Positions 256 through 29,626 of a stretch of DNA of 29,626 bases are shown piece after piece. The notes beneath the pieces are model-generated. The model was not told the DNA's origin and did no database searches. It saw only the letters and a program-made list of their open reading frames with translations. The position numbers were made by a program, and so were the translations under genes. Origin of the DNA: a virus; the IMG/VR virus record IMGVR_UViG_3300050821_004361, positions 1-29,626 of that record; one strand, given 5' to 3'. How positions within the stretch are numbered: the first letter of the stretch is position 1; each line of letters opens with the position of its first letter.

Positions 256-286
256 TGTGTCTGTTATGTCTGCTAAACCAGACACA
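256..286. repeat. Inverted CAGACAC motif next to attP core
   Basis: TGTGTCTG at 256-263 and CAGACACA at 279-286 form an 8-bp inverted repeat that abuts the tRNA-derived core. An ATGTCTG lies between them. This is one local cluster of the heptamer that recurs through the window. Confidence 0.6.
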
Positions 287-336
287 CTCCCTTCACACGG
301 GAGGGGTCGCAGGTTCGATCCCTGCATCGCCCACCA
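287..336 (+). other. attP core: 3' half of tRNA-Val(CAC)
   Basis: The segment folds as the 3' part of a tRNA. It has an anticodon arm (CTCCC 287-291, loop with CAC at 294-296, GGGAG 299-303), a T arm (GCAGG 309-313, TTCGATC loop, CCTGC 321-325), the 3' acceptor strand ATCGCCC (326-332) and an encoded ACCA (333-336). The CAC anticodon and the ATCGCCC acceptor fit bacterial tRNA-Val. The matching 5' half (GGGCGAT and a D arm) is absent upstream, so it is not a functional tRNA gene. Integrases that target tRNA genes carry such a 3' fragment in attP so the host tRNA is restored on insertion. Phage-like sequence and AGTCACGCG repeats on both sides favour attP over attL or attR. Confidence 0.8.
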
Positions 337-398
337 AGATAACTCTCTGAAATCTAAGCCGAATTTGAACCCCTCTCGGGTGTCTGGCAAAGTTGTCT

Positions 399-417
399 AG
401 TCACGCGGCGCGTGACT
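399..417. repeat. AGTCACGCG palindrome, right arm of attP
   Basis: AGTCACGCG (399-407), a single G, then CGCGTGACT (409-417) form a 19-bp perfect palindrome. The arm is identical to the repeats at 125-184. It overlaps the stop codon of the leftmost gene of the early operon. It may be an integrase or excisionase arm site, a weak terminator, or both. Confidence 0.55.
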
Positions 418-664
418 AACCTCTAGTTGTATCCTGTAGCGTTTGTATGAACGCGTCGACTTCCTCGTCTGTCACGGGGCGCACTCTCTCCGTGCGTTGG
501 TTGATGATTGTTTGAGGGGCAGCGCCCCAAAAGAACTCGCCCGATGACACGATGTAGGCGTCGATCCGGCCTTCGTTGTCGCCGTACTCCGTCTTCAGGC
601 ACAGCTCGCCATCAGCCGATACGAATAGGCCGATAGGGCATTCAGCAAGCGTCGTCTCAGGCAT
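416..664 (-). CDS. Conserved phage hypothetical protein, 82 aa
   Basis: This is the last gene of the leftward early operon. The core, with GLFVSADGELCLKTEYG near the N-terminus and YIVSSGEFFWG around residues 38-48, resembles a small protein of unknown role often seen in phages of alphaproteobacteria. No transmembrane or signal segment is visible. The start is supported by GGGAGAG about 6 nt upstream of the ATG. The stop overlaps the AGTCACGCG palindrome. Function is unknown. Confidence 0.75.
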   Translation of the reverse strand: MPETTLAECPIGLFVSADGELCLKTEYGDNEGRIDAYIVSSGEFFWGAAPQTIINQRTERVRPVTDEEVDAFIQTLQDTTRG

Positions 665-675
665 GCGTCTCTCCC

Positions 676-1699: not shown

Positions 1700-1761
1700 A
1701 GGCGGGTTCTCCTTGTCTCTTAATTAGTGATTGTGTCTGGTCGTGTCAAGTTTGTCTTGCG

Positions 1762-4299
1762 TCAAACTGGCTCCTCGTCGGCGGACGGAAACGGGATTAT
1801 CGTAGCGCTCGCCGGCCTCGGGAGGTTCTTCCACAGCGCAATGATTTCGGCGTGGGTCATGGTGCTCCATTCGCGCCCGCCCGGGGCCTTCTCGCCCAAG
1901 AGCCACAACCGGCCCGAATGCGTCCCGTCGGCGACCAGACCTGCGAGGTGAGGCGCTTTCGGATCGACCCTGAGACGGCGCACGCCCGTTTTGCGCCGCT
2001 CCATGTCGAGGAGCCACGTTCGCACGATTTGCGACGACGGCTTGTTCTTGACTTCGTGGGCGACGTGATCGGCGATCTCGCCTTGCGTCGCCACCAGAAC
2101 AGCAAAGGGGCCTTTACCTTCCTGCGCGTCGGCCAGAAGCTCTTCCAGCCCCGCCAACGCCGGGTGGATGTTCAAGTGCTCCAATTCGGTTTTGTCGTCG
2201 CTCGACGGCGCGACGCCGCCGATGAACTCCTGCTTCTCGGCTTCGGTCAGGGCGTAGTGAAGCAGGTAGGAAGCGGCCAATTCGTCGCCGCCTTGTTTGA
2301 GCCACGCCCAAAGATTTTGGTAGTAATCGGGGGGTTCAGCTTTGGCGTCGCGGCGATTGACGACATGCACGCGGCGCTGGCCGCGCTCCAAGTAGAGCGG
2401 GTTTTCCTCGTTGGAGAACAAGATCACTGCGACCCGGTTCGGGATCTCGTAGGGGTGCATGTGCTTTTTGTTGATGGTCAGCGTCTCCGGCGGACGCGCC
2501 AACAGCTCTTTCAGGCGCGTGCCTACGTCATGCGCGGACGTGAAACCGTAGTCCGACTGGCGTGTCTCGCCGACGATCAGGAGCTTGGTTTCGACCACGC
2601 CGTTGAACGGCTCCGAAAGCTTAAAAATCAGCGTTTCTTTCCAATTGCCGTCGCCAACCGCCAGCTTGACCGGCTGCACCAAGGTGTCTTTGCCGAACCC
2701 CTGGAGAGACATGATCAGAAAGTGCCAGTTCGGCTTGCACTCCGGGTGCTGGGCGGCAAACGCGCACCATTTGATGAACCGCTCGGCCTCAAAGCGTGAA
2801 CCCATGACGAACTCGACGTGATCGAGCCACGGCTTCACCTGCGCCGCCGTCGCCATCAGCGTCCCGTGGGTCGTGGGCCGCCAGAGGTTGAATACCGGGA
2901 GCGACGAATTGCTTGACGGGATCATCACCAAGTCTCCAGGCGCGTAGAGGACGCCGCGCGTTCGACGCTTCGCCGCTTGGGCGAGAAACAGATCGGCGAC
3001 CGAGGGGAGCCGTCCCCGGTGGCCCGGGCGCAGCTCGCGCGTGAGCGTCTTCGCCAGATGCGCGTTGTCGTCAGAAAACGCTTGCCGGGAGACGACATCG
3101 CGGGTCTCCACGTCGATGAACCCCTGCGACCGGCAATAAACCCAGTGCTCTTCGAGCATGTCCCAAGCCGGGGTCTTGGTCTGGAGCGCGGGGTCTTCGG
3201 GGTCGAGATCGGGAAAATCTTGCCCGGTCGCAGGCACGAGCGAGCGCACGAGCTTGATGAGGCCAATGTCGCCATATCTGAACCCGCTTTGCGAGAGCAC
3301 GCTTTTCCAGACGCTCTCGGAAGTCTGGCCGTGCTGCGCCCGTCCGTCCGACCATGAAAGCCAAAGATCGAGCGCCGCAGGCGTGGCGGCGAGGGCCGCG
3401 CCGAGAAACGCCGCCAGGGCGTAGGCGACCCTTGTCCAGTTGTCGTAATTGTCGAGCCAGCGATCAATGTCGTTGGGCAGTTCCCCAGGAGGCACGTCGC
3501 GGTTCGGGATCTCGTCGAGGAGCGCTTTGGCCTCGGCGATCTTGGCGCTGGGATCTATCGATTTCGCGCCAGGCGCAGACGCCGTCGCAGACACGGGCGC
3601 AGACACGGGCGGGGGCGGCGGCCCGTCGAGCACCCAGCCCAGAGTTTTCGCTTCTCGGACAAACTCATCGAAAAAATTATCGAGCTGGTCGACGCTCACA
3701 ACCGGGATCTGATCCAAGCCTTCAAGCGCGCGGCTCCAGACGTATGGGCCACGCGTGCCGGGATGCACGCCCGCGATCACGGCTTGCTTGCTCGACGCGA
3801 GCAACTGAACCTCGGTCGTCAGGACGCCGTTGCGGAATTTGAACGACCTGTTTGCGACCGGCGCGCCGTCGCCGACAAAATCGACCGCCCGCACGAAGAA
3901 GGCGTCGCGCTCGTGCTTGGGTGCGACCACGTAGCGTCGGAGGGGTTCAACTCCGGTGTACGTCAGCAAGAGCGCCCGGAAAATTCGCGAGAAAATCTCG
4001 CCCTGGTCGTTGTCGACGATGAACCAACCGCCGCCCGCGACAAAGCCGACATTTGCGCCCCATTCGTCGCGCCAGAGCTTCGCGGTGGCGTAGTCGGCGC
4101 AACGAAATTTCGGATTGTTCACGTCAACGCCGACCCAGCCCGACGGGGTGAGCTTTCCCGGGGCTTTGCCTCGGTCCTTGGGGTGGATGCTCGAGCTGGG
4201 CGAGATGTCGCAGTCAGGCGGCGTCACAGGCACCAGGCGCGGGCCAAAATTCAGGTCGTAGAGCTGGATCGCGTCGTACTGGAGCTTCAAGTCGGGCAT
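1762..4299 (-). CDS. Primase-helicase (prim-pol N-terminus, D5/DUF5906-type helicase)
   Basis: An 845-aa replication protein. Residues about 35-190 resemble an archaeo-eukaryotic-type primase/polymerase domain, with VDND at 95-98 as a likely metal-binding acidic motif and LLASSKQAVIAGVHP at about 166-180. A P/A-rich linker (227-250) leads to a PriCT-like helical segment (about 275-345). The C-terminal SF3/D5-type ATPase has a Walker A variant GFGKDT at 534-539, LLIVGE at 573-578, LFSNEENP at 627-634 and RGQRRVHV at 639-646. It should prime and unwind DNA for the family A polymerase encoded just upstream. The start at 4299 has AAAGGG about 8 nt upstream. An upstream in-frame ATG at 4407 would bury it in the preceding gene. 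The gene overlaps that gene's end by 13 nt. Confidence 0.88.
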   Translation of the reverse strand: MPDLKLQYDAIQLYDLNFGPRLVPVTPPDCDISPSSSIHPKDRGKAPGKLTPSGWVGVDVNNPKFRCADYATAKLWRDEWGANVGFVAGGGWFIVDNDQGEIFSRIFRALLLTYTGVEPLRRYVVAPKHERDAFFVRAVDFVGDGAPVANRSFKFRNGVLTTEVQLLASSKQAVIAGVHPGTRGPYVWSRALEGLDQIPVVSVDQLDNFFDEFVREAKTLGWVLDGPPPPPVSAPVSATASAPGAKSIDPSAKIAEAKALLDEIPNRDVPPGELPNDIDRWLDNYDNWTRVAYALAAFLGAALAATPAALDLWLSWSDGRAQHGQTSESVWKSVLSQSGFRYGDIGLIKLVRSLVPATGQDFPDLDPEDPALQTKTPAWDMLEEHWVYCRSQGFIDVETRDVVSRQAFSDDNAHLAKTLTRELRPGHRGRLPSVADLFLAQAAKRRTRGVLYAPGDLVMIPSSNSSLPVFNLWRPTTHGTLMATAAQVKPWLDHVEFVMGSRFEAERFIKWCAFAAQHPECKPNWHFLIMSLQGFGKDTLVQPVKLAVGDGNWKETLIFKLSEPFNGVVETKLLIVGETRQSDYGFTSAHDVGTRLKELLARPPETLTINKKHMHPYEIPNRVAVILFSNEENPLYLERGQRRVHVVNRRDAKAEPPDYYQNLWAWLKQGGDELAASYLLHYALTEAEKQEFIGGVAPSSDDKTELEHLNIHPALAGLEELLADAQEGKGPFAVLVATQGEIADHVAHEVKNKPSSQIVRTWLLDMERRKTGVRRLRVDPKAPHLAGLVADGTHSGRLWLLGEKAPGGREWSTMTHAEIIALWKNLPRPASATIIPFPSADEEPV

Positions 4300-4517
4300 G
4301 GGCGCAGCCCTTTCGCGTGGCGGCGGATCTCGCTGATTGCGTTTCGTAGACCGCTGGCCGAGCGGCTGGTTCGGGGCGCGACTTGGATCAGCTTTCGCCC
4401 GGCGCATGACCAGTAGACCATCAGGTGTCTGCGCTTGTCGTCGACCTCGTCGATCACGCCCCCGTTGCGCTCGATCTCCACGAGGATCGCGTCTAGGTAC
4501 ATGTTTCGTCGGCTCAT
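4287..4517 (-). CDS. Small hypothetical protein between polymerase and primase
   Basis: A 76-aa basic protein beginning MSRRNMYLDAILVEIERNG. The ATG overlaps the polymerase stop as ATGA, which fixes the start and suggests translational coupling. Its pattern, an N-terminal helix, then strands with GRKLIQVAPRTSRS, then a C-terminal helix, is loosely like the small HicA-type dsRNA-binding fold, but I cannot show homology. A role with the replication proteins is inferred only from position. Confidence 0.7.
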   Translation of the reverse strand: MSRRNMYLDAILVEIERNGGVIDEVDDKRRHLMVYWSCAGRKLIQVAPRTSRSASGLRNAISEIRRHAKGLRPCPT

Positions 4518-6520
4518 AGCTTGCCGTACCTCTCGCTGATCCCGCCCGCGCACGAAAGCGGCATGCCCCGCGCCCATGTCGGGACCACGCTCATCGCCAG
4601 CTTCATTCCGAGGAAGAGTTCGTATGCGTCGTCGCCTTCCTTTGTCATCGCGACGATCTCGTCATGGACAGTGGTCAAAAGCGTGTCTGGGAACTCGTTC
4701 TCCAGACTGACCATCGCGTCGGCCAGCAGGTCGCGCGCGATGGCCTGCGTCGCGTTCTCGACCAGCTTGCCGCCGTAGGTGTCCAGCTCGCACCATTGGC
4801 GCGTGTACTGGTTGACGCCCCAGTAGATGATCCGCCCGCCTTCGATCCGCGCGTTGCGGTAGACGAGGCGTCGCCCTGACGGCAGTTCCATCAAGAGCGC
4901 GCCCGCGAGCCGCCCCTTCGGATCGCCCATGCGAAAGCTCAGTTTCCTGAGATAGAACGTCTCGCCGGGGCGGGTGATCGCTTGTTTCGCGTAAGCTTCA
5001 AGCGCGTGCCACAGAGCCACGATTGGCGCATTCGCCCGCCGAAACGCGTTGACCGCGTCGCGGGCTTCCTGAACGGTCAGGTGAACCCCTGCCTTCTCCG
5101 CCGTCTCCCAAAACTTGTTCGGGCCCATGCCGTAGCCACACGCGAGGCGCAGGACCTTGCCCAATTGCCGGTTGGTCGAGCCGATGCTCGCCGCCGTGAA
5201 TGTGTAGACATCCTCGTGTCTGCGGAACACATCAAGAAGCGGTTCGAATTCGGCCAGCCAGGCGAGCACGATGGCTTCAATCGCGTGGTAGTCGCAGACG
5301 ACGAGTTTGAACCCCTCGGGCGCTTTGAAGACGCCGCGCAGGCACGAAGACACGACATCGAGGGGCCGACCGAACAAGAGGCGTAGACTGTCCGCGTCCA
5401 TGCCCTTGAGGATTTGCTCGATGGCTTTGTCGACGTGCTTGACGACGGGGCGAGGAAAATTCTGGATCTGCGGGCCTCTGCCGGCCCAGCGCAGCGTGCG
5501 CACCGCGCCGCCGTACTGCACGAGATTTCGGGCGCGATCATCGTCCTGCGAATATTCGTTGATGGCGGTGAGTTTCGCCGTCGAAGTCTTGGACGCTTCG
5601 GAGCGCAGCAGGAGCACGTCCTGGGTGTCCGGGGAGAGTTTGAAAAATTCCGGCGAGCCGATGAAGCCGGCAAGCGTGTCTTTGGCCAGCGAGGCGTGCG
5701 GGTATCCTCGCGAGCGCACCCACTCCAAAAGCTTCACGTTCTGCGTCGCGCCATTGACCTCGCCGTTGGTGATCCGGCGGATCTCGGCGTTGAGACGGAG
5801 CAGTTCTTGCAGCGTGATCGCTTGCAACGCGACGAGCAGCTCGCGATCAACGGGGAGCCCGCGCTGGTTCATGCGCTGGTCGACGAGCCAGATCTCGCGC
5901 TCCCGGGGCGGCATGCGCGGGATGCGCAGATGAACGTCGCGCTCGGCTTCAACGTCGGCGAGATTGTAGGCGATCAGTTGGTTGAGCTTGACCGGGTCCT
6001 CGCGGTGCCACCAGATCGGTTTATGGTTGGCGTCGAAGCGCCGGGGCCTCGCCATGCGTTTCATCACGGCGTAGCCGGCCTTGTCTTTGACGTGCGGCGA
6101 GCCGACCGCTCGCGAGGCGTCGTCCAGGCTCATGGGTAGGCCGGCGCAGGCCGCCGCCGCCATCGTGCAATAGAACCGCTCGATGGGCAGCGCCGGCCAG
6201 TTAAAACGGGGAACGCAGATGTTGTTCCAGACCGCCCACTCGAAGGCGGCGTTCCACGCGTGGATCTCTGCCCCATTGCGGACAACTTCAAGCAGACGGC
6301 ATTCGTGCGCCTTGGCGGCGACAACTTCGGGACGCGCCGGATCAACAAGCATCGGGTCCAGAAGGTCGAAGCCGATGAAATACGGCAGATCGTGGTTAAG
6401 CGCGAACCCGGCCAGGATCGGCACGGTGTCTGGATGCTTCGTCCACACGTCCGCGCCGACCTCGGTCAGGTCGAGGACGCCCGCCAACTCGAAATCGAGG
6501 CTGACGACCGTCGCGCCCAT
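4514..6520 (-). CDS. Family A DNA polymerase with 3'-5' exonuclease
   Basis: A 668-aa phage replicative polymerase. The N-terminus carries a DEDDy proofreading exonuclease, with DFE at 9-11, NAAFEW at 90-95 and Y185-x3-D189. The polymerase domain has motif A CDYHAIE (D410), motif B RQLGKVLRLACGYGMG (451-466) and motif C VHDE (HDE at 619-621). All expected catalytic acids are present. The start is chosen at 6520, where ATG overlaps the preceding stop as TGATG. An upstream in-frame start would lie inside the dpdA-like gene. This polymerase with DUF2800, DUF2815, primase and SNF2 genes is a known phage replication cassette. Confidence 0.93.
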   Translation of the reverse strand: MGATVVSLDFELAGVLDLTEVGADVWTKHPDTVPILAGFALNHDLPYFIGFDLLDPMLVDPARPEVVAAKAHECRLLEVVRNGAEIHAWNAAFEWAVWNNICVPRFNWPALPIERFYCTMAAAACAGLPMSLDDASRAVGSPHVKDKAGYAVMKRMARPRRFDANHKPIWWHREDPVKLNQLIAYNLADVEAERDVHLRIPRMPPREREIWLVDQRMNQRGLPVDRELLVALQAITLQELLRLNAEIRRITNGEVNGATQNVKLLEWVRSRGYPHASLAKDTLAGFIGSPEFFKLSPDTQDVLLLRSEASKTSTAKLTAINEYSQDDDRARNLVQYGGAVRTLRWAGRGPQIQNFPRPVVKHVDKAIEQILKGMDADSLRLLFGRPLDVVSSCLRGVFKAPEGFKLVVCDYHAIEAIVLAWLAEFEPLLDVFRRHEDVYTFTAASIGSTNRQLGKVLRLACGYGMGPNKFWETAEKAGVHLTVQEARDAVNAFRRANAPIVALWHALEAYAKQAITRPGETFYLRKLSFRMGDPKGRLAGALLMELPSGRRLVYRNARIEGGRIIYWGVNQYTRQWCELDTYGGKLVENATQAIARDLLADAMVSLENEFPDTLLTTVHDEIVAMTKEGDDAYELFLGMKLAMSVVPTWARGMPLSCAGGISERYGKL

Positions 6521-7239
6521 CACAGCGCCTCGATCTGGGCGGCCAGCGCTTCTGCGTTGCGCCAGTCGTTCTGGCCTTGACCTTTTCGGCGCGCGGAGTA
6601 GGACCACGCTATGCTGTCGGCTGAGTGAAGATGGTCGCGGATCGCCTCGACCTTGAGGCTCGTCACTTTCAGTCCGAACCCATGCAGCCTGAGATCCGGG
6701 CGCTCGGCGTGAATGGCGTTCAGAACGGCCAGAACGGCCCCGGGATCGCCGTTGCGCTTACAGACGCTTCCGACGCCTACCCACATGCCGGGTGTCAGTC
6801 GGCGGCTATAAGCGTGAACATGCGCAGCGTAGTCGGCGGGGTCGTAACCCTGGAGCACCGGCATCACAGTGACGCCGTTGAGGTCACAGGCCAGAAGCTC
6901 GTCGTAACGCTCAATCGTCAGGCGTTGATGATTGGCGACCGTCAGCCCGGTCTTCGCCAGCATGACCGGCTCGCACATGTAGTCTTGGGCGACAGCTGCG
7001 ACGAGGTTGGGCGCGGCCCAACGGCGAATGTGCGCGGCGTAGGCCGCTGGCGGTTCGGGATAGCCGCCGTGGCGAGCAAGCGTAGTGAATGCCCCGCTGT
7101 CCATGATCCAGGGGGCGTCGGTGAACTTGCTCTTGCGCCCCCGTGGGCCAGTCAGGCGGGTGACGCTGACGAACACCGGACCCAGCCGCTTTGCGTCGGA
7201 CGGTTGATGGATGCCGACGAAAAAGCGCAGCGCGCCCAT
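6520..7239 (-). CDS. dpdA: DpdA-family 7-deazaguanine DNA-modification enzyme
   Basis: A 239-aa protein of the tRNA-guanine-transglycosylase-like DpdA superfamily. Signatures are IMDSGAF at 45-51 (the counterpart of the substrate-binding DSGGF of TGT), AQDYMCEP at 84-91, MPVLQGY at 126-132, VGVGSVCKR at 154-162, LRLHGFGLK at 183-191 and SADSIAWSYSARR at 206-218. Known DpdA enzymes exchange guanine in DNA for a 7-deazaguanine such as preQ0, shielding phage DNA from restriction. No queuosine-precursor genes (folE, queD, queE, queC) are visible in the window, so the base would have to come from the host or from genes outside it. TGATG overlaps join it to both neighbours. Confidence 0.85.
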   Translation of the reverse strand: MGALRFFVGIHQPSDAKRLGPVFVSVTRLTGPRGRKSKFTDAPWIMDSGAFTTLARHGGYPEPPAAYAAHIRRWAAPNLVAAVAQDYMCEPVMLAKTGLTVANHQRLTIERYDELLACDLNGVTVMPVLQGYDPADYAAHVHAYSRRLTPGMWVGVGSVCKRNGDPGAVLAVLNAIHAERPDLRLHGFGLKVTSLKVEAIRDHLHSADSIAWSYSARRKGQGQNDWRNAEALAAQIEAL

Positions 7240-7679
7240 CACGCCCTCCTGGCGAGGCGTGGGCGGTAGACCAGCGGCGGATTGCAGAGCGCGTGGTGCT
7301 CGGCGCAATAAGGCGAGCCCGCTTGCTTGGGCTTGGCGCAGAACCAATGGTCGCCGCGCGCAGTCCCTGAAATCACCGCATAACGGCAGTGATGCGCTTC
7401 AAGCTCGAACACACGGAGCGGCCCGCTCCTGGGCCGGGCAGGCACGAACGCGAGCACAGACACGGGCTCGGGCGGCGCTTTGGGCTTGCGCGGGACTTGT
7501 AGCCCTCGTTCTGGAAAGCGCGGATCGCCCTTTAGACGCGCCGAGCGCGCCATACCGCACACCGAGTTCTTCGGCATGTTGAGACGCCGCCCGATCTCGG
7601 CGGTCGTGACTTTGTCCGCCCACAGCGCCGCAATGCGAGCGAGGTCGTCCTCGGTGTATTTGCCCACCGGGCCGCTCAC
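7239..7679 (-). CDS. gcrA: GcrA-like cell-cycle regulator
   Basis: A 146-aa protein matching GcrA at both ends. The N-terminal HTH is YTEDDLARIAALWADKVT followed by IGRRLNMPKNSVCGMARS (about 8-46). The C-terminus has HHCRYAV and GDHWFCAKPKQAGSPYCAEHH (about 95-128). GcrA is an alphaproteobacterial transcription factor that binds sigma70-RNA polymerase and acts at promoters carrying CcrM-methylated GANTC sites. A phage copy could redirect host or phage transcription through the cell cycle, which is inference. The linker (47-90) is P/R-rich and longer than in chromosomal proteins as I remember them. The start is GTG, overlapping the previous stop as GTGA. Confidence 0.82.
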   Translation of the reverse strand: MSGPVGKYTEDDLARIAALWADKVTTAEIGRRLNMPKNSVCGMARSARLKGDPRFPERGLQVPRKPKAPPEPVSVLAFVPARPRSGPLRVFELEAHHCRYAVISGTARGDHWFCAKPKQAGSPYCAEHHALCNPPLVYRPRLARRA

Positions 7680-8338: not shown

Positions 8339-9237
8339 CAGACCAGCTCTTCGCTCTCTTCGTCGTCGGGGAAGCTCTCGGACGCCGCCTTGCGACCGTC
8401 AAGGCGTTTGCCGGGGCGCAGGAACTGCACGCTGTCCAGGAACAGACCACAGCCTTTGTTGCCGCCCTGGTCGTAAGCGAAGGGCCGCACGTTGGCGCGC
8501 ACCAGCCAACCGGCCCAGAACTCGGTCCAGTCGATGATGTCCTGCTTCTGGGCGTTCACTGCGCCGGGCTTGTCTTTCGACCACGGCGAAATGAACACGT
8601 CGCCCGCCTTGTAGCCGTCATAGACACCGGCTTTCTCGGCTCCATCGTGGAAGGGCGAGCGCAGGCCCGGCGGCAGCTTCGAGGGCCAACGCTCCTTGAG
8701 CGCCGCGTCGATCCCCTGCTGGAGCGTCTTGAATTCGGGACGCGCTTGCTGGGCCTTGTCGAAGATCAAGGTGAGCGAAAAACGCGGCTCGCCGCCAACG
8801 ACGACAGGGCGAGCCTTCTGGAGATTGAGAAAGCTCGCGGTGCCCGGAGGCGTGAGAATAGAAGTCGTAGCCATGACAAAGTCCTTTGTGTCTGCGAAGT
8901 CCTTTGGGTCTTCGGGTGAGCACCAGACGAACGGCCCTTCACGGGCGAGCCCGGCTGGTCGAAGCGTCTCGACGATGAAACCGAATAGGTTGAATTTGTG
9001 CCGTGGCGCATGCGCCGCGAGCAGGGCGAAAGACAAAGCGCCAGGTTCGCGCCGAAACGAACGGACGGCGGCATAGAACATCTTCTCGGAAGCAGCACGC
9101 TCATGCTCAAGCTTGACGCGCTCACGCTCGGCGGCGAGCCCCTTCGCGGCGGCTTCAAGCATGCCGGGATCATGCGGCGCGGGCTCGAAGGGCAGCGACA
9201 TTAGGTGCTCAAGCGAGAGGGACTTGGACTGATCCAT
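8338..9237 (-). CDS. DUF2815-type ssDNA-binding protein with N-terminal extension
   Basis: 299 aa. Residues 122-299 match the DUF2815/Enc34-like phage ssDNA-binding family: SFLNLQKARPVVVGGEPRFSL, then WPSKLPPGLRSPFHDG, VFISPWSKDKPG and WAGWLVRANVRPFAYD. The acidic tail FPDDEESEELV is typical of SSBs that recruit replication proteins. The first 121 residues are an extra helical, charged region I do not recognise. The start at 9237 is fixed by a TGATG overlap. A second in-frame ATG at 8874, with AAAGGA about 8 nt upstream, would give a 178-aa protein that is the family domain alone. Both products are possible. Confidence 0.82.
   Translation of the reverse strand: MDQSKSLSLEHLMSLPFEPAPHDPGMLEAAAKGLAAERERVKLEHERAASEKMFYAAVRSFRREPGALSFALLAAHAPRHKFNLFGFIVETLRPAGLAREGPFVWCSPEDPKDFADTKDFVMATTSILTPPGTASFLNLQKARPVVVGGEPRFSLTLIFDKAQQARPEFKTLQQGIDAALKERWPSKLPPGLRSPFHDGAEKAGVYDGYKAGDVFISPWSKDKPGAVNAQKQDIIDWTEFWAGWLVRANVRPFAYDQGGNKGCGLFLDSVQFLRPGKRLDGRKAASESFPDDEESEELV
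8872..8899 (-). promoter_or_regulatory. Internal ribosome binding site inside the SSB gene
   Basis: On the minus strand AAAGGACTT occurs twice, separated by a CAGACAC-containing spacer. The second copy lies about 8 nt before an in-frame ATG (8874) that begins MATTSILTPPG, the usual type of start for DUF2815 proteins. Confidence 0.5.
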
Positions 9238-10055
9238 CAGACAATTCCTTCTTCGTCGAGTTCAGGGTCATAGTCGGGAAAACTGTCAATCGAGCGTTGC
9301 AATTTTAGACGCCGGTAAGCCGGGCACTCGCGGCTTGCGGCGCAAAAATAACAATGGTTGCCCGCCACGAGAGACAGATCGCGCCCGCGCACGATCCGCT
9401 CGATGGAGGGCTTCAGGACGGCGTGCGTCCAATAAAGCAGCTCGCCGACCGAGATCGTCCACGAACGCACCGGATCGCCTCCAGCGCGAGGCTGCACGAT
9501 CAGCACGCAGACACTCTCGATGGACGCGGCAAGTTCCGGTCGCTCGCGCATGAGACGCCCGAGAACGCCCACGGCGTAGCAGAGCATCTGCGTGTTGCCC
9601 TCGGGCTTGACCGCTTTGCCGCGCCCGTATTTGAAGTCGACGATGTAGAGCGTGACCGCGTCGCACGCGGCGAAGTCGGTGGTTCCGAATACCTCCTCGA
9701 TCACCACAGCCGTGGGCCACAGCCAGCCCAGAGACACCTCCTCCTCGACTATGCGCCAGTGCGAGTAGTCGGATATGCGTGCCGTGGTGGCCGCAAAAAG
9801 AGACACCGCGTTCAGCATCTCCTGCGTGACCTCGATCTCCTCCCCTTCGACCATGAATTTCATGCCCTCGGTCCACGGCACCGCGTTGAGCTTAAGCGCC
9901 GCCTCGCAGAGCGCGTGCGCCAGCGTGCCCTCCTTGGCGGCAAAGCCCACGGTCTTGGGCGGGTGTTTCGCCCATTCGGCGGGTGCGCCCAGACACGTCA
10001 GCCAGATGTCGCTGGACGACGGGCCCAGGCGCGCGTGGCGCTTGGCGTCCGCCAT
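9237..10055 (-). CDS. DUF2800 family PD-(D/E)XK nuclease (Cas4/RecB-like)
   Basis: 272 aa. An N-terminal LGPSSSDIWLTCLGAPA is followed by EGTLAHALCE. The nuclease core is FGTTDFAACDAV with IVDFKYGRGKAV, giving the D...DxK signature, and GNTQMLCYAVG follows. Near the C-terminus NHCYFCAASRECPAY provides the cysteines of a Cas4/AddB-like iron-sulphur cluster. It is probably an exonuclease for recombination-dependent replication or end processing. DUF2800 and DUF2815 genes are regularly adjacent in phages, as here. The start overlaps the preceding stop as TGATG. Confidence 0.86.
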   Translation of the reverse strand: MADAKRHARLGPSSSDIWLTCLGAPAEWAKHPPKTVGFAAKEGTLAHALCEAALKLNAVPWTEGMKFMVEGEEIEVTQEMLNAVSLFAATTARISDYSHWRIVEEEVSLGWLWPTAVVIEEVFGTTDFAACDAVTLYIVDFKYGRGKAVKPEGNTQMLCYAVGVLGRLMRERPELAASIESVCVLIVQPRAGGDPVRSWTISVGELLYWTHAVLKPSIERIVRGRDLSLVAGNHCYFCAASRECPAYRRLKLQRSIDSFPDYDPELDEEGIV

Positions 10056-10600
10056 CAGACTACAGGCAGGCCAGCCGCTTGCACCAGATCATAAAGCGCG
10101 GGCCGGTGTTCGTCCAAAGCGTTCATTACGAAAGCGAGGCCGGTCGTGTCTTTGAACGTCGGCAGGAGATCAAGGATCTTCTTCGAACCCTCCCCTTTCT
10201 GCGCCAGCCGTACTGCGTTGGTGACAATGGCCTTGAGCGTGTCTAGCGGCGGGAGATCCGGCGGCGGCGGCGGAGCTGCGGGCTCCGGGGGCGCTGGAGC
10301 TGGTGGCGCAGCCGCAGACACGCGCGGAGCCCGGGGGGCTCTCGTTCGCTTCGCCGGAGGTTCGGGAGCCGTCGGCTCGGGCTCGGGATCTGCGCCGTTG
10401 CCCTTGGCGTGCTCGGCGTCCTCGGCTGCGTCCTCGGCGTCGATCCGTTCGCAGGCTTCGGCTTCGGCCTGCACCGCCTCGGCGTCCAGGGGAGCGCCCA
10501 GCCACGAGGGTGGCTTTTTCTGTTGCAACGCATAGTTCAAGACGAGCCGCAGCAGCTCGTCCTCGTTCTCAGCTTCAAACGATAGAAAGACTTTAGTCAT
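10055..10600 (-). CDS. Hypothetical protein with P/A-rich linker
   Basis: 181 aa in three parts: an N-terminal ~45-residue segment (MTKVFLSFEAENEDELLRLV), an acidic then Pro/Ala-rich low-complexity linker (about 46-118), and a helical C-terminal ~60 residues (LDTLKAIVTNAVRLAQKG...). The layout suggests two small interaction domains on a flexible tether. It lies directly upstream of the DUF2800 nuclease with a TGATG overlap, so a partner role in replication or recombination is plausible but unproven. Confidence 0.72.
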   Translation of the reverse strand: MTKVFLSFEAENEDELLRLVLNYALQQKKPPSWLGAPLDAEAVQAEAEACERIDAEDAAEDAEHAKGNGADPEPEPTAPEPPAKRTRAPRAPRVSAAAPPAPAPPEPAAPPPPPDLPPLDTLKAIVTNAVRLAQKGEGSKKILDLLPTFKDTTGLAFVMNALDEHRPALYDLVQAAGLPVV

Positions 10601-16462: not shown

Positions 16463-16540
16463 GTTGATATTCGGCCTGTTAAGCCCGCCCAGACACGGGA
16501 GGGGCGTCGGAGGCGTCGAGGGCGCGCCCGCGCGCCAAAG

Positions 16541-18859: not shown

Positions 18860-18861
18860 TT

Positions 18862-19156: not shown

Positions 19157-20764
19157 TCACAGCGTGTCGTTATCGTCGGGGAAACGAAGCCCTGCCGCGC
19201 TCACTGCGCCTTGCGCGTGCGCGTCGGGCGCGTTGGGATCAATCGTCCCGCGCGCTATGCCGTCAATCGTCGCATGCTGCGAGCGCAACGACGTTCCTTC
19301 CAACGCTATGATTGTCTCGCGGTCCTCGGGCGAAGCGCTGGCGACGATGCAAGACTGAAACGCTTTGGCGCTCGACACGCCAACGCGCACCGCCTTTGCC
19401 CAACAGAGCAAGCGCCTAGGCGTCAAACCCATTGTGAGCCTGCCAGCGTCGGCATTGTTGCGCGTCAAGCTGGCGTATTCGACCATCAGACGCGCGCATT
19501 CCGCATGCACGCCGGTATGGTTCGCTAGCATGGCGATTTCGCTTGACGCCGGAAGAAACGAGAACTCGACGCGAAAGGCGAACCGATCCATAAACGCCAC
19601 GTTGACCGGCGCAGTGTCGACATAGCGCCCGCTATCGTCGCCAGAGCCCGCCGTATTGTCGCACGCGACGATAAACACGCCGTCTGCGGCGCGCACCACT
19701 TCGCCTGTTGGAAGGTGAATTTCCCGCGTGTCGAGCGCCGTCATGAACACTGCGAGCGAGCCCGAACGCAATAGCGTTGGCTCGTCAATCAGGATGACGC
19801 AATGCGGAATGCGAAAGGCCCTAGTTAACTTCCCGTCACGCCATTCCATGCCGCCACCCCGGCGCGGCATTTCTTGCCCGATGATTTCTTGCGGCTCGGT
19901 CGTGCGATCAATCGGAATGCGCACAAACGGGCGGCCCAAGCGCGCGGCGTACTGGCGAACCCCCTCGGTCTTGCCCGTGCCAGCGTGCCCATACGCCCAT
20001 GCGTTCATTCCCGTCACGTCGGCGGCCCCGAGCTGCGCCAACGCCTCGACGTTCCAGACGTAGGCCGGATCAATCGCGGGCGCTTCTGCGTAGTCGCAGA
20101 CGTGCACGAACACGTTTTCCCATGCATAGCGATACGCGTTGGGCGCGTCGCTGCGGTTCATGCCAAATGCTTTGAAAAGCGCGCTTTTGCGCAGGACGTT
20201 GACGACGGGCGCGGCGCTCGACGCGACGCCGTCAATGTCGACATGTTTCACGACAGTCTTGACGACAGTGCGCGGGCCTTTCGTCGCAGCTTCGACAAAC
20301 GGTCGCAACAGTCCCGGCATCATCTGCGCAAGGTGCGGCGTCATATGCGCACTAGCGGGCGCGAGCGCTTCGGCAATCAATGCTTCTGCGTCTTTCCCTT
20401 CGAAGCCTTCGAAGCCCTCGCCTTCGTTGTCGAGCGCTTCGACGGGCGGCGCGGCGGGCGCGTCGAGCGTCGCGGGCGTTTCGTTATCCATTTCGTCACT
20501 TTCCTCATCGTTGGCGTCAAAGGTCGCGGTCAGGTTCGCCGGATTGACTGCGGGCTGCGAAAAGAAGCTGACGAACGCTGCGTTCAGATCAAAGCCCAAG
20601 TCATCGCAAGCTTGGCGTATGTCTTCGCCGGTTATGGTCGAAGATCGCTTCGTCCATCCCTTCACCGCCATGTAGCGCGCCCAACCGGGATGCGCCTTCA
20701 GTTCACTCAAGACATGCGGGCGAAACGCGCGGCCTAGTTTTATGTGGTCAAATTTTGTTGTCAT
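19157..20764 (-). CDS. MoxR/CobS-like AAA+ ATPase
   Basis: 535 aa. The AAA+ core begins near residue 250: Walker A GHAGTGKT (259-266), a pre-Walker B stretch, Walker B VILIDEP (323-329), then sensor-1-like FIVACDNT and the arginine-rich FMDRFAFRVEF. This layout, with IDRTTEPQEIIGQ after the P-loop, is that of the CobS/MoxR clade. The N-terminal 250 residues include a small helical domain (ITGEDIRQACDDLGFDL) and an acidic low-complexity region. Such ATPases pair with VWA proteins, and the VWA gene lies one gene downstream. No strong ribosome site precedes the ATG. Confidence 0.88.
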   Translation of the reverse strand: MTTKFDHIKLGRAFRPHVLSELKAHPGWARYMAVKGWTKRSSTITGEDIRQACDDLGFDLNAAFVSFFSQPAVNPANLTATFDANDEESDEMDNETPATLDAPAAPPVEALDNEGEGFEGFEGKDAEALIAEALAPASAHMTPHLAQMMPGLLRPFVEAATKGPRTVVKTVVKHVDIDGVASSAAPVVNVLRKSALFKAFGMNRSDAPNAYRYAWENVFVHVCDYAEAPAIDPAYVWNVEALAQLGAADVTGMNAWAYGHAGTGKTEGVRQYAARLGRPFVRIPIDRTTEPQEIIGQEMPRRGGGMEWRDGKLTRAFRIPHCVILIDEPTLLRSGSLAVFMTALDTREIHLPTGEVVRAADGVFIVACDNTAGSGDDSGRYVDTAPVNVAFMDRFAFRVEFSFLPASSEIAMLANHTGVHAECARLMVEYASLTRNNADAGRLTMGLTPRRLLCWAKAVRVGVSSAKAFQSCIVASASPEDRETIIALEGTSLRSQHATIDGIARGTIDPNAPDAHAQGAVSAAGLRFPDDNDTL

Positions 20765-21101: not shown

Positions 21102-21241
21102 TTCAGGTACTTAGCCTCATTTCAGCCAGACGACGTGTCTGGCGTGCCAACTATGTACCAGACACAATCAGACAAAGCAAACACTTTCATACAATATCAG
21201 CAGGCTTTTCCGATGATTTTTCGCGTGCTATCACGCCCGAC

Positions 21242-21541
21242 ATGTCAGACACGCAATTCAGCGCCCTCGACTGGCGGCCTTCGTCTAAACGGGCGAGCTA
21301 TCCGCGCGTCCGATCCTGGGGCGGGCAGAAGCAAGCGCCCGCCGCGTTCCTCGCAGCTGCGCGCCTATCGGGCTTCGCCTCGGGCAAACATCGGCGCTGC
21401 GATCATTGCACGCGTTGGGCGCTCAAGGGGCTAGGCGTGTGTCGCTGGCACGGTGGAGCAACCCATGCATCGAAGGGCCGCCCCTACGTCAGAACCGCCC
21501 GCACAATCGCGCTCACGGCGTCACAGCCCGCAGACGATTGA
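21242..21541 (+). CDS. HGG-motif zinc protein, terminase-associated type
   Basis: 99 aa. The C-terminal half has CDHCTRWALKGLGVCRWHGG, a Cys3-His zinc-binding pattern ending in the HGG motif found in small phage proteins that often lie near terminase genes. The N-terminus is basic (SKRASYPRVRS). The ATG at 21242 begins MSDTQFSALDW. An upstream in-frame start would add a non-typical leader. It overlaps or abuts the next gene, suggesting a two-gene unit. Confidence 0.72.
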   Translation: MSDTQFSALDWRPSSKRASYPRVRSWGGQKQAPAAFLAAARLSGFASGKHRRCDHCTRWALKGLGVCRWHGGATHASKGRPYVRTARTIALTASQPADD

Positions 21542-21773
21542 GACGGGCGCAGACACGCCAGACACGGTGGCGCTCGCCAAATCAACTTTGCAAGCGATAT
21601 GTCGAGACGAAAAAAGCCCTGCTGCGGCGCGTGCTCAAGCCGCGCGCACACTTTTGGAACTCGCCGGCGCGCTCAAAAACACGACCGCAGACACGGCGCG
21701 AAAAACCGCGCCGGAACTCACGCTGGAAGAGCTTGACGCACGGCTCGCAGCGCTGGCGCATGACGGCGCGTGA
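21465..21773 (+). CDS. Possible terminase small subunit
   Basis: About 102 aa. The C-terminal 70 residues are helical (TVALAKSTLQAICRDEKSPAAARAQAARTLLELAG) and end in LTLEELDARLAALAHDG, a pattern I associate with small terminase-like proteins of alphaproteobacterial phages. The start is uncertain. The ATG at 21465 has GGAG 6 nt upstream but lies inside the previous gene, while a later GTG near 21568 would give only the helical part. TerL lies about 6.5 kb away, so the pairing is tentative. Confidence 0.5.
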   Translation: MHRRAAPTSEPPAQSRSRRHSPQTIETGADTPDTVALAKSTLQAICRDEKSPAAARAQAARTLLELAGALKNTTADTARKTAPELTLEELDARLAALAHDGA

Positions 21774-22080
21774 CTGCGCAGGCACAGCTAACCAATTGAT
21801 ATCGTTGGTGTCTGCGCTCCCTGGTGGAGGGAGCGCCCCGCGCCCCTGCGCTCGCGCGGGCGCGCGCCTTCGCCCCCCGGGGTGCGCGCGCGGGGCGAGC
21901 GCGCGTGTGCAGACGTATGGAGAAAATTCTCGTGTCTCCAACTTCGGAGATCACACTTACATCACACTTTGGGACCGGCGGCGGCAAGCTCGCCCAGGAG
22001 ACACGGCGACAGGTTTATGACGGGCTCCGACGTGGTCCTCGGCCCCGCCGGCTGAGTGTGGTCGCGTGCTGCTGGGAGGT
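21774..22080. other. Structured convergent intergenic region
   Basis: No gene is supported here. GCGCTCCCT (21814-21822) and AGGGAGCGC (21828-21836) form a perfect hairpin. A second, very GC-rich folded block spans about 21845-21905, with GCGCGCGCC and a run of C/G at its apex. The region separates convergent transcripts and probably terminates both, though T-runs are absent. Confidence 0.5.
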
Positions 22081-22570: not shown

Positions 22571-22798
22571 TGGCGGCCTCCCTTTTTTATTGTTGGCCCC
22601 ATGTTAACACCCGAAAGCGGCAGGGCGCACTGGGTAGAACTACCTAGGCCGCGCCGGAGCGGGTGTCCTGGGAGGTTCAGATGAGCCCCTGTCGGCAGAC
22701 ACGCTCGACATGCACGACAAAACCCCGTATAGCTCGCTTTCAGAGCCGCTCTTTGGACCGCTCGGCATGGTCCGTCGCCCTTCTCCCGCGAGCGGCGC

Positions 22799-24136
22799 AT
22801 GGCGTTTCCGAAGCCTCCCGAAAAGATTGTCGCCTTCAACAGCGGGCCTGTCGCGTCGCACGACATCGGCCGTCAGTTCGACGAGCACCGCCGCGCGAGC
22901 GCCGAAGTCATCGACTTCCTGCGCACCGTCGTGCGCGACGACGGACGCTTGAAGAACGGGCTCATCGGTCCCGAGCAGCTCGACCCGAAACTGCCGGAGA
23001 TCCTGGCCGAACGCGCCGTCAAGGCGATGAGCGATCTGCTCGCCAACGTCCTCGACAGCGCCTCGCGGGCGCAGGCGTCAGCCGCCGAGGTGTGGCGCAT
23101 TCAGGAAAGGATCGAGACGGCCCGCCGTGACATCGCCGCCAGCGCCGACGCGATGTCGCGTGCGTCCGAGGAGGTTCGAATGCGCCTCCAGAACCTCGAC
23201 GCCGAAGTCGAAACGCGCGTGTCTGCGCTCGTGCCAACTGGTGTGTTGGGCCCTCAGTACACGAACTTCTACGCGACCGACGAGCAAAGCTCGCAGCCGC
23301 TCTCGTCGGACTACGCCCAGGTGAGCATCGAGTGGGCGGAGCATATGCCCGACACCATCCCGCCGAACGTGCTCGCGATCAACGCGATCACCGGCGATCA
23401 CTGGTCGTCGCGATGGTGGGCCAACCGCAGCGCCAACGCGTTCGGCATGCTGGCGTGGTGGTATCAGGGCGCATGGCCGCAGCCCGGCCCGCCGACAACC
23501 CCGAACACCCCTACGGGTCAGCCCATTCCGCCCGGCGCGATGTACTTCGACACCACGCTCGGCGTGATGATGGTGTGGAACGGCTCGACGTGGGTGAACG
23601 CCTCCGCGCCCGCCAAGGGCGTGACCGCGACACTGTACTATCTCGCGACCATCAATCAGACCGTGTTCCCTCTCAATGTAGTCGACCGCAACGGCAAGAC
23701 TTTCGCCTTCAACCAGACCGCCCCCGAGGGTTTGCAGGCGTTCGTGAACGGTGTTCGGCTTGAGCCGACCTATGACTTTACCGTCGACACCGTGGGTTCG
23801 TCGGTGACCTTTTTGCGCGGGCTGACGACGAACAGCGTGGTCGCCTTCGATCTTCTCACCCCGGCGGCGCAGCTCACGCCCAGCGGAACCGTCAACACGG
23901 TGCTGATGAGCCCCATCACGCCCAACGGAACCACCGCAACGTTCGGGCTCACCGTGGCGTCGAACGGACATACCGCCAGCATCGCCAAGAACGAGGAGCT
24001 GCTGGTGTCCGTCGATGGCGTCATCCAGTCGCCCGGGTCCGCCTACAACGCCACCGGGACGATCATCACTTTCGTCGAGGCCCCCGCCGCCACCGCCAAC
24101 ATCTTCATCGTCTGGTTCGGGCCGCCCAACCCATGA
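22799..24136 (+). CDS. Phage tail/virion attachment protein
   Basis: 445 aa. The N-terminal ~140 residues are helical, including a coiled coil (AAEVWRIQERIETARRDIAA), as in a virion-binding stalk. The C-terminal part is a series of beta-rich modules typical of tail fibres: AMYFDTTLGVMMVWNGSTWVN, then VFPLNVVDRNGKTFAFN with GLQAFVNGVRLEPTYDF, then LVSVDGVIQSPGSAYN. It is probably a structural fibre or adhesin. Its stop overlaps the next start as ATGA, so the next product probably assembles with it. Confidence 0.75.
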   Translation: MAFPKPPEKIVAFNSGPVASHDIGRQFDEHRRASAEVIDFLRTVVRDDGRLKNGLIGPEQLDPKLPEILAERAVKAMSDLLANVLDSASRAQASAAEVWRIQERIETARRDIAASADAMSRASEEVRMRLQNLDAEVETRVSALVPTGVLGPQYTNFYATDEQSSQPLSSDYAQVSIEWAEHMPDTIPPNVLAINAITGDHWSSRWWANRSANAFGMLAWWYQGAWPQPGPPTTPNTPTGQPIPPGAMYFDTTLGVMMVWNGSTWVNASAPAKGVTATLYYLATINQTVFPLNVVDRNGKTFAFNQTAPEGLQAFVNGVRLEPTYDFTVDTVGSSVTFLRGLTTNSVVAFDLLTPAAQLTPSGTVNTVLMSPITPNGTTATFGLTVASNGHTASIAKNEELLVSVDGVIQSPGSAYNATGTIITFVEAPAATANIFIVWFGPPNP

Positions 24137-26309: not shown

Positions 26310-26311
26310 GA

Positions 26312-26766: not shown

Positions 26767-26770
26767 CGCC

Positions 26771-27091: not shown

Positions 27092-27105
27092 CGGGGAGAG
27101 ATCCG

Positions 27106-27285
27106 ATGAGCCCCCTCGGTATCGTCCTCTTGATCGTTCTGGTTCTGATCCTGTTCGGCGGTCTCGGCGGGGGCTCCTACATCGGCGCGTGGCCCTACGG
27201 CTACGGCTACGGTCACGGCGGGGTCGGGCTGGTTGGCGTGCTCGTCGTCATCCTGCTCGTCCTGCTCGTGATGCGGCTCGTCTAA
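27106..27285 (+). CDS. DUF3309-like small membrane protein
   Basis: 59 aa with two hydrophobic spans (LGIVLLIVLVLILFG and LVGVLVVILLVLLVM) joined by a Gly/Tyr-rich loop (WPYGYGYGHGG). This is the shape of DUF3309 proteins, found mainly in Proteobacteria with no known function. GGGGAG lies 7 nt before the ATG. It could have a lysis-related role given the late-gene position, but this is unsupported. Confidence 0.72.
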   Translation: MSPLGIVLLIVLVLILFGGLGGGSYIGAWPYGYGYGHGGVGLVGVLVVILLVLLVMRLV

Positions 27286-27300
27286 CAAGGAGGTTCAATC

Positions 27301-27735
27301 ATGGCGTTTCCAATGCGAGGCGGACCGCCGCCCGGGCTTCCTCCCGGCGGTCCTCCGCCGATGGGCGCAGGAGCGCCCTCTGGGGGAGGATTGGGCGGCC
27401 TCTTGGCGGCGCTGTCGCAGCGCCACGGCCAGCCCGCAAGCCTGACCATGCATCCCGGCCCCGGCGGTCCTCCCGGCGGCATGCCCCCGATGGGCGGCGG
27501 CGGACCTCCGGCCATGCCGCCCATCGCGGGCGGGCCGCCCCCTGGCGGACCTCCCGGCATGGGCGGCGGACCGCCGCCGGGCCTCCCACCGATGGGCGGT
27601 CCGCCGCCCGGCATGGGCCGACCGCCGCCTCCGGGCCCGCGCGCAGCTCCGGTCGGGGCCGGACGCGCGCCTGCGCCGCGCGCGGCGGCTCCAAGAGGCG
27701 TTCGCGTCAAGTCGGCCCCGGTGCGGGTGTCGTAG
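27301..27735 (+). CDS. Gly/Pro-rich low-complexity protein
   Basis: 144 aa composed almost wholly of Gly, Pro, Met and Ala (GGPPPGLPPGG, MPPMGGGGPP), ending in a basic tail (RGVRVKSAPVRVS). AAGGAGG 7 nt upstream of the ATG argues for real expression, and it is collinear with the genes around it. The opposite strand is also open here because of the biased sequence, so coding rests on start signal and position. It may be a disordered virion-surface protein. Confidence 0.6.
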   Translation: MAFPMRGGPPPGLPPGGPPPMGAGAPSGGGLGGLLAALSQRHGQPASLTMHPGPGGPPGGMPPMGGGGPPAMPPIAGGPPPGGPPGMGGGPPPGLPPMGGPPPGMGRPPPPGPRAAPVGAGRAPAPRAAAPRGVRVKSAPVRVS

Positions 27736-27747
27736 GAGGGTTCAGAA

Positions 27748-28266
27748 ATGACGATTGGCGACAAGAGCGCCCAGTCCTACGGCTGGCGCGTCAAACTGGA
27801 AGCCCCTCTGCCTGACGGCGAGGGGATCAAGATCCCCACGCCGGGCATCGATCAGCGCTACACCGATATTCGTCATGCCGACATCACCGTCGCTTCGACC
27901 AACAAGGTCTATCGCGACGGCGACGCCGGGATCGATCTGGCGTTCGACATGACCGAAGGGGCCGAGACCGTCGAGGTGTCCAACCATACCGGCTCGACAT
28001 GGCCGCTCGGCGACGAGATCTACGTGTTCTGCCCCCATCTTCTGGCGGAAGGGGCCAACGAGTGGGACCTCAAGGGGCAAATCTGGGATCTCCAGCAACG
28101 CGTGTCTGCGCTGGAAGGCGCGACCATGCAGCAGACGCAAAAACCGCCAAGAGACGCTTCTGAACCCTCCAAGGCTGCGCCTGCGCCCGTTAAAGCCGCG
28201 ATCCCGCCCGCGAAGCCGCCGAATTCGCCGACGAGGGGCCCAATTCCGCCGACAAGGGATCGATGA
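27748..28266 (+). CDS. Hypothetical late protein before terL
   Basis: 172 aa. A beta-rich N-terminal domain (WRVKLEAPLPDGEGIKIP, ITVASTNKVYRDGDAGIDLAF) is followed by a short coil (WDLKGQIWDLQQRVSALEG) and a Pro/Ala/Lys-rich tail. GGAGGG 9 nt upstream of the ATG supports the start. Its stop overlaps the terL start as ATGA. I recognise no family. A coupled role in packaging is possible. Confidence 0.7.
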   Translation: MTIGDKSAQSYGWRVKLEAPLPDGEGIKIPTPGIDQRYTDIRHADITVASTNKVYRDGDAGIDLAFDMTEGAETVEVSNHTGSTWPLGDEIYVFCPHLLAEGANEWDLKGQIWDLQQRVSALEGATMQQTQKPPRDASEPSKAAPAPVKAAIPPAKPPNSPTRGPIPPTRDR

Positions 28267-29626
28267 GCGACCGGATCGAACTCAGGAAGCTGCTCGAACG
28301 CAAGAAGGCGATCCTTCTGGCGCGCGACGACGTGATCGCGTTCGCCCGATTTATGATGCCGATCCCCGACGCGCAGGACGACGTGTCTGTGTCGCTTTAC
28401 CGGCCCGCCAAACACCATCGCGTGCTCGGCGCGGCCCTCGAAGAGGTCGAAAAAGGTGTCTACAAGCGGCTCCAGATCACCCTTCCGCCCAGACACGGCA
28501 AGACCAAGCTCGCCTCGCACCTGTTCGCGGCCTGGTTCATAGGCCGGAACCCGGAGAAATCGCTGATTTGCGCCACATATTCCGAAAAATTCGCCTGGGA
28601 TCACGGTCGGGCGGTGCGCGACCTGATCGAAAGCCCTCTTTTCCGGCAAATTTTCCCGAATGTGCGGCTCAAGAGCGGCTCTGCAAGCATGGATCGGCTC
28701 GAAACCGAAGACGGAGGCGTGCTTTTCTTCCTCGGGCGGGGTTCTGGTGCGACCGGACGCGGCGCGGACGTGATTTTGCTCGACGATCCGACCAAAGACC
28801 GCAAAGAGGCCGACAGTCCGACGATCCGTGAGCAACTTTGGTCCTGGTATACCCAGGTTTTGCAGACACGGCTGATGACCAAGGCCGGAGCTATCGTCAT
28901 CATCCAGACACGCTGGCACGAGGACGACTTGATCGGGCGTTTAACCGATCCGCAGAACCCCTGTTACTCCGCCAGCGAAGCCAAGAAGTGGCGGGTGATC
29001 GACATGCCGGCGATTGCGCGCGAAAAGGACGTTTTGGGCCGCAAAAAGGGCGAAGCCCTGTGGCCGGAGCGGTTCGACCGCGAATATCTCGACAACATCC
29101 GCGAAACCGACATTCGGGGCTTTCAGGCGCTCTACCAGGGCCGCCCGACGCCCGAAGAGGGGAGCTTCTTCAAGGCGGTTCATATGCGCACCTACGCGCG
29201 TGTCTCTGACATGCCGCCGAAAGAAAGACTTCGCTTTTATGGCGCGAGCGATCACGCCGTGTCTCTCGAACAGGGCCGCGACAAGACGTGTCTGATGGTC
29301 GTGGGTGTCGACGATCACGACCAGATGTGGGTCCAGCCCGATATTTTCTGGCAGCAGGCAGACACGCAGCTCGTCGTCGAGACGATGACCATCTTGATGG
29401 AGCGTTACAAACCCCTCTTTTGGTGGGCGGAAAAGGGCCATATTTCGAAGAGCATCGGCCCGTTTTTGCGCAAGCGCATGCTCGAAAAGCGGGTGTTCTG
29501 CTCGCTCGACGAGCTGACGCCGGTCGGCGATAAGCAGACACGCGCCCAGAGCGTGCAGGCGCGCATGTCGATGATGAAGATCCTCTTTCCTGGGTTCACG
29601 CGCTGGTGGGCCGAGGCGCACGATCA
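28263..29626 (+). CDS. terL: Terminase large subunit (partial, runs off the window)
   Basis: The first ~454 residues of a phage packaging motor. The ATPase domain has Walker A PPRHGKTKL (about 76-84), Walker B VILLDDP and the Arg-rich GATGRG just before it. The TQVLQTRLMTKAGAIVIIQTRWHEDDL segment is the coupling motif region. The nuclease domain begins near RFYGASDHAVS with the first metal-binding Asp, and GVDDHDQMWV follows. Sequence is intact to the window end. It should cut and translocate phage DNA into procapsids with a portal encoded beyond the window. The ATGA overlap with the preceding gene fixes the start at 28263. Confidence 0.93.
   Translation, partial: MSDRIELRKLLERKKAILLARDDVIAFARFMMPIPDAQDDVSVSLYRPAKHHRVLGAALEEVEKGVYKRLQITLPPRHGKTKLASHLFAAWFIGRNPEKSLICATYSEKFAWDHGRAVRDLIESPLFRQIFPNVRLKSGSASMDRLETEDGGVLFFLGRGSGATGRGADVILLDDPTKDRKEADSPTIREQLWSWYTQVLQTRLMTKAGAIVIIQTRWHEDDLIGRLTDPQNPCYSASEAKKWRVIDMPAIAREKDVLGRKKGEALWPERFDREYLDNIRETDIRGFQALYQGRPTPEEGSFFKAVHMRTYARVSDMPPKERLRFYGASDHAVSLEQGRDKTCLMVVGVDDHDQMWVQPDIFWQQADTQLVVETMTILMERYKPLFWWAEKGHISKSIGPFLRKRMLEKRVFCSLDELTPVGDKQTRAQSVQARMSMMKILFPGFTRWWAEAHD

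Follow-up and report, generated by a model that had tools for sequence, protein, structure and literature searches.

CAGACAC, a dispersed DNA word that drifts between phage lineages and correlates with cobS-cobT genes

The 29,626-base IMG/VR virus record IMGVR_UViG_3300050821_004361 (hereafter the window, i.e., the whole stretch of DNA analyzed) is part of an uncultivated phage, and it is strongly enriched in a short asymmetric heptamer, CAGACAC. In related phages the word changes from lineage to lineage, and strong words of this kind correlate with the presence of a gene pair, cobS-cobT (cobST). We tentatively favor a reading, rated at a little below even confidence, in which CAGACAC is a recognition signal for a drifting, phage-encoded machine, most probably CobST acting on phage DNA.

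Results

An initial annotation of the window had counted about 40 exact copies of CAGACAC by eye, against a rough expectation of about 4. Exact matching gave 22 copies of CAGACAC and 18 of GTGTCTG, i.e., 40 in total, where 3.3 are expected under the order-2 Markov model used for word counts, and CAGACAC is the top-ranked 7-mer. The quoted positions were correct within 1-2 bases (7457 rather than 7456; 21550 and 21559 rather than 21552), and the proposed 8-base extension, CAGACACG, proved to be the top 8-mer (28 vs. 1.4 expected). The core AGACAC occurs 66 times vs. 10.5 expected. Genes were called with a simple codon-score script and synonymous codons were shuffled within them, a comparison that had been suggested with the annotation; the enrichment stands, with 25 copies in genes vs. 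3.6 +/- 1.7 after shuffling (maximum of 8 in 300 shuffles). These 25 sites are divided between the gene strand (14) and the opposite strand (11), and density is higher outside genes (3.5 per kb) than inside (1.0 per kb). In terL, where differing codon phases had been pointed out, seven copies occupy all three phases and both orientations. Because of the codon-shuffle result, the use of all phases and both strands, and the higher density outside genes, we conclude that CAGACAC is under selection at the level of DNA and not of protein, as the annotation had argued.

The sites are unevenly spread, the coefficient of variation of the gaps being 1.40 vs. 0.97 for random placement. They cluster at 21135-21808 and 28102-29535, with long empty gaps from 16490 to 21135 and from 23219 to 28102; the tail-fibre region is likewise free of CAGACAC. 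Strand polarity of the FtsK type was not seen in the window (22 on the plus strand and 18 on the minus strand, with no clear switch), and strand skew is moderate in other records (45/20 in G001).

The annotation had also proposed looking in related phages, and enrichment was seen again in all close relatives. Their leading word is CAGACAC or a one-letter neighbor at 1.3-1.8 per kb, ranking second in a few short fragments; it is CAGGCAC in G003 and G010, and RAGACACC in G009. An excess over the codon shuffle was present in 10 of the 10 genomes tested. The words of more distant relatives include GGAGACA (89 vs. 5.0 in G025), GGAGCCC (G028), CC[AG]GGAC (G026), CGGGGTA (G029), and CCAGGACA, while the Microcystis phage Mae-Yong1326-1 (MaeY) carries CAGGACA (89 vs. 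11.4; in genes, 66 vs. 24.3 by codon shuffle). Where the DNA of the window and G002 could be aligned (80% identical), 61% of sites were common to both, vs. 41% for same-letter control words; other pairs showed a similar or smaller excess of shared sites, or none. Sites turn over between relatives while density stays. The words track the vertical phylogeny of the polymerase, single-stranded DNA-binding protein (SSB), exonuclease, SNF2, and RuvC genes. G002 and G009, whose capsid proteins are ~91% identical, have different words. The top CAGACAC clusters in other viral contigs, among the matches listed, were one-strand repeats or sparse sites. The motif was not found in a Caenibius phage-plasmid, and a search of host genome contigs for proviruses, using primase or polymerase, returned no relative. 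Between genes at 26437-26535 of G001 (L060 6437-6535) lie eight tandem 14-bp units with CAGACACG, resembling an iteron array.

The CobS-like protein of the window matches the Pfam families AAA_5 (6.3e-15) and CbbQ_C (7.2e-09), its CobT-like protein matches CobT_C (2.6e-08) and VWA_2, and cobT comes after cobS in nearly all CobS-positive loci. Structures were predicted from window and viral-contig sequences. The predicted CobS structure (mean predicted local distance difference test score, pLDDT, 80.6) matches the MoxR ATPases NorQ and CbbQ (E 2.5e-17). The Pfam matches, operon order, and NorQ fold match are those of a MoxR AAA+/VWA pair. Residues 1-70 of CobS are predicted to form a separate helical domain at the N terminus (mean pLDDT 82.2). 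When pairs were matched for AAA identity, those with the same motif were just slightly more alike in the N-terminal half.

The pair occurs in every motif-bearing record whose contig spans the region, and was not found in the motif-poor G021, G032, G033, G013, G018, and RHph_N65, which share the polymerase, exonuclease, and SNF2 genes. A panel of genomes was then scored against whichever was larger, the Markov or the codon-shuffle expectation, and cobST lineages or fragments thereof fill the top 14 places. Records with cobS include Roseobacter phage CRP-810 (32), G030 (20), and G036 (17), along with the low-scoring G031 and T5S1 (both 13), ICP2 (9), and SteveFrench (8); among records in which cobS was not detected, BcepNazgul reaches 24 and the others are at 15 or below. 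A search based on a CobS alignment yielded 80 viral loci, and the 67 that were at least 10 kb long had a median score of 10.0 per 10 kb, vs. 4.0 for 58 CobS-negative loci of the polymerase family (p = 3.5e-14, ignoring descent). With clustering at 60% identity (29 CobS-positive vs. 34 CobS-negative clusters) the difference remained (p = 1e-6), 62% vs. 6% scoring above 8. The CobS-positive set includes unrelated, lower-GC phages with a different word, [AG]TTTAAA. Cyanophage Syn9, whose CobS is short, has 295 copies of GGCAC in 100 kb vs. 106 expected by the Markov model and 96 by codon shuffle; the signal is less clear in halovirus HHTV-2. The association of cobST with a word across several kinds of virus suggests, without proving it, that these genes act on DNA. 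Judged from these sequence comparisons, strong motifs are tracked best by the pair cobS-cobT, which would, by that correlation, be the leading candidate for the reader.

The motifs are also depleted inside cobST itself. Relative to expectations from whole-genome density, which treat sites as independent and are not corrected for base composition, there were 8 vs. 35.2 in six genomes (P = 4e-8), 37 vs. 86.4 in another 13 loci whose words are GC-rich, and 116 vs. 141 in 21 [AG]TTTAAA loci.

Discussion

The initial annotation had listed several possible roles for CAGACAC. Binding by a phage factor is the best supported of these, whereas modification by the phage's own DpdA is unlikely and a host-read Chi is unsupported. 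A reader encoded by the phage also seems more likely than one encoded by the host. If so, CAGACAC would be a short, asymmetric recognition signal, maintained on either strand at ~1.3-1.8 per kb, in coding and intergenic DNA alike, and read by a sequence-specific machine. As the specificity of that machine drifted between phage lineages, the site set of the whole genome would shift along with it. CobS, as a predicted ring-forming MoxR-type AAA+ ATPase, and CobT, as its VWA partner, could act on phage DNA at these sites, e.g., by loading onto them so as to mark or protect the genome, segregate it, or assist in its packaging. A broader proposal, that phage CobS-CobT pairs are a DNA-directed AAA+ machine addressed by a lineage-specific, genome-wide word and that the sites co-evolve with the machine, is one that we put forward with greater caution.

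Annotations of phage cobS-cobT genes usually assign them to vitamin B12 metabolism. A strong, lineage-specific word linked to them offers a concrete and cheap test of their function, and if CobST binds or acts at the word, a common set of genes now taken to be metabolic would have to be reclassified as serving DNA handling. If CobST is not involved, a rapidly drifting, genome-wide signal still needs a reader to explain it. Tailed viruses that infect bacteria or archaea widely carry the pair, whose role in phages has been described as uncertain (PMC11288001; PMC8651126).

Several observations weigh against CobST as the reader. The link is a correlation that common descent confounds, and with clustering at 45% identity (5 vs. 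13 clusters) the p value is 0.06. About one third of CobS-positive loci have no strong motif; ICP2 and SteveFrench, whose CobS proteins are distant, score 8-9, similar to controls; and cobST was not seen in G027, G028, G002, G003, and G010, all of which are fragments. The scarcity of sites inside cobST could also mean that the module was acquired recently; the tail-fibre region is motif-free as well. The nearest structural relatives, NorQ and CbbQ, remodel proteins, not DNA. A fold search with the predicted N-terminal domain of CobS gave no significant match (best E 4.0), which leaves any DNA-binding role for it putative. Moreover, since the CobS reading frame of Syn9 is just 361 amino acids, the domain is unlikely to be a general reader.

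Two other explanations are each unlikely but deserve comparison with the CobST reading. The reader could be another protein of the replication and recombination module (SNF2 helicase, exonuclease, SSB, RuvC, or polymerase) or a protein yet to be identified. These genes are common to the motif-bearing genomes and the words follow their phylogeny, but they occur in motif-poor relatives as well, and the [AG]TTTAAA loci have a strong motif with no detectable polymerase of that family in the fetched stretch. Alternatively, CAGACAC could be the Chi sequence of a host AddAB or RecBCD enzyme, gathered by the phage to recruit or survive host recombination. Like CAGACAC, Chi in phage genomes is short, asymmetric, dispersed, and over-represented within and outside genes (Bobay et al., 2013; PMC3784561), with a median observed/expected ratio (O/E) of 3.12 in lambdoid phages without recombinases (PMC3784561). 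The clustering and both-strand spread of the sites fit this explanation loosely, as do hosts that are probably alphaproteobacteria. However, the reader of Chi is a conserved enzyme of the host, where Chi itself is enriched, whereas the present word shifts from one phage to a close relative and showed no enrichment in the alphaproteobacterial replicons tested: in 1.68 Mb from four megaplasmids (Sinorhizobium, Methylorubrum, Novosphingobium, and Paracoccus), which may not be those of the true host, CAGACACG occurred 18 times vs. 25 for a reversed-pattern control. The word also differs between G002 and G009, although their hosts may differ; O/E values of 8-14 at more than 1 per kb surpass known cases of Chi; and these phages encode their own exonuclease, SSB, and RuvC-like genes.

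Priming by the phage primase, which is of the archaeo-eukaryotic primase (AEP) superfamily, is improbable. The motif-bearing genomes examined do encode such a primase, and known sequence-specific primases (T7 gp4, NrS-1 PrimPol, pRN1) use short template words on both strands, as here; the primase of phage NrS-1 requires an 8-nt template site (PMC7102993) and that of pRN1 requires GTG (PMC8076596). Nevertheless, the word did not follow the primase in evolution. In clade B (G025, G027, G028), G027 and G028 have different primase types and keep GGAGCCC, and in clade C, MaeY and G026 differ likewise and keep CCAGGAC, while G021, G032, and G033 carry such primases without the motif. Known primase sites are also more weakly enriched: NrS-1 has just two, and the T7 site GGGTC occurs merely 94 times vs. 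57 in T7. Finally, that the sites are modification marks for phage DpdA is hardly credible, because dpdA, although present in the window, appeared among the 24 other records (several of them fragments) only as a short partial match in G002, and the motif persists in relatives in which dpdA was not found.

Two further candidates were set aside. An 84-amino-acid winged-helix protein is judged unlikely, being confined to the CAGACAC clade while other relatives keep a motif. As for structural proteins, G028 has the clade B word although it yielded no homologue of capsid, portal, or terminase proteins.

Among known systems, the stoperators of mycobacteriophage L5 are many dispersed, asymmetric sites with a phage-encoded reader, mostly intergenic and oriented with transcription. 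CAGACAC is comparable in being asymmetric, numerous, and dispersed, but it lies on both strands and largely in genes (25 of 40 sites, 14 on the same strand and 11 on the opposite strand). The MoxR AAA+/VWA pairs (NorQ-NorD, CbbQO, RavA-ViaA, and the cobaltochelatase CobS-CobT) combine a NorQ/CbbQ fold with a VWA partner, as here; those characterized remodel or metallate proteins, and we know of no DNA site for any of them.

Features of the window

Besides terL, an AEP-type primase-helicase, dpdA (for DNA modification with 7-deazaguanine), and the cobT/cobS pair, the window encodes a family A DNA polymerase, an Enc34-type SSB, a DUF2800 exonuclease, pieces of an SNF2-type helicase, a RuvC-like resolvase, an integrase, tail-fibre genes, and a GcrA-domain protein (Table 1).

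Table 1. Exact CAGACAC matches and selected genes in the window.
Feature	Position	Strand	Remark
CAGACAC	257..263	-	
CAGACAC	279..285	+	
CAGACAC	380..386	-	
Winged-helix protein, 84 aa	1445..1699	-	weak HTH_17 matches
CAGACAC	1733..1739	-	
AEP-type primase-helicase	1762..4407	-	PriCT_2, DUF5906
CAGACAC pair	3588..3606	+	12 bp apart, in primase gene
CAGACAC	4425..4431	-	
CAGACAC	4683..4689	-	
CAGACAC	5216..5222	-	
CAGACAC	6426..6432	-	
dpdA	6520..7347	-	PF23859 2.7e-41
CAGACAC	7457..7463	+	
CAGACAC	8888..8894	-	
CAGACAC	9508..9514	+	
CAGACAC	9990..9996	+	
CAGACAC	10315..10321	+	
CAGACAC	11334..11340	-	
CAGACAC	11551..11557	-	
CAGACAC	11973..11979	+	
CAGACAC	12871..12877	+	
CAGACAC	14431..14437	+	
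CAGACAC pair	15539..15554	-	9 bp apart, intergenic
CAGACAC	16490..16496	+	
cobT-like gene	16895..18937	-	VWA-domain partner, downstream of cobS
cobS-like gene	19157..20764	-	MoxR-type AAA+ ATPase; candidate reader or effector
CAGACAC	21135..21141	-	
CAGACAC	21159..21165	+	
CAGACAC	21246..21252	+	
CAGACAC pair	21550..21565	+	9 bp apart
CAGACAC	21688..21694	+	
CAGACAC	21808..21814	-	
CAGACAC	22696..22702	+	
CAGACAC	23219..23225	-	
CAGACAC	28102..28108	-	
terL	28263-29626		carries seven CAGACAC copies
CAGACAC	28383..28389	-	in terL
CAGACAC	28490..28496	+	in terL
CAGACAC	28863..28869	+	in terL
CAGACAC	28905..28911	+	in terL
CAGACAC	29288..29294	-	in terL
CAGACAC	29359..29365	+	in terL
CAGACAC	29535..29541	+	in terL

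The SNF2 helicase gene (10676-12143) is split in two in the window and is a single reading frame in relatives, so the split is either natural or a sequencing error. A second over-represented word, GAACCCC/GGGGTTC, occurs 18 times vs. 3.8 in the window and 63 times vs. 11.0 in G001 (L029, L030). The window strongly avoids CGGCCG (1 vs. 35) and GGCGCC (1 vs. 38), and patterns of avoidance vary among relatives.

Since the window carries a GcrA-domain gene and avoids GANTC almost totally (2 vs. 108 expected), the host is probably an alphaproteobacterium. GANTC occurs 0-3 times in many relatives, being near-absent in most of G000-G012, G025, G028, G029, G032, and Mae-Yong1326-1 but not in, e.g., G001, G009, and G027; this scarcity suggests hosts with CcrM-type methylation. 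Mae-Yong1326-1 (OP028995.1; L088) has 72% GC and 1 GANTC vs. 90 expected. Given these features and its kinship to the phages described here, an alphaproteobacterium is a more plausible host for it than Microcystis.

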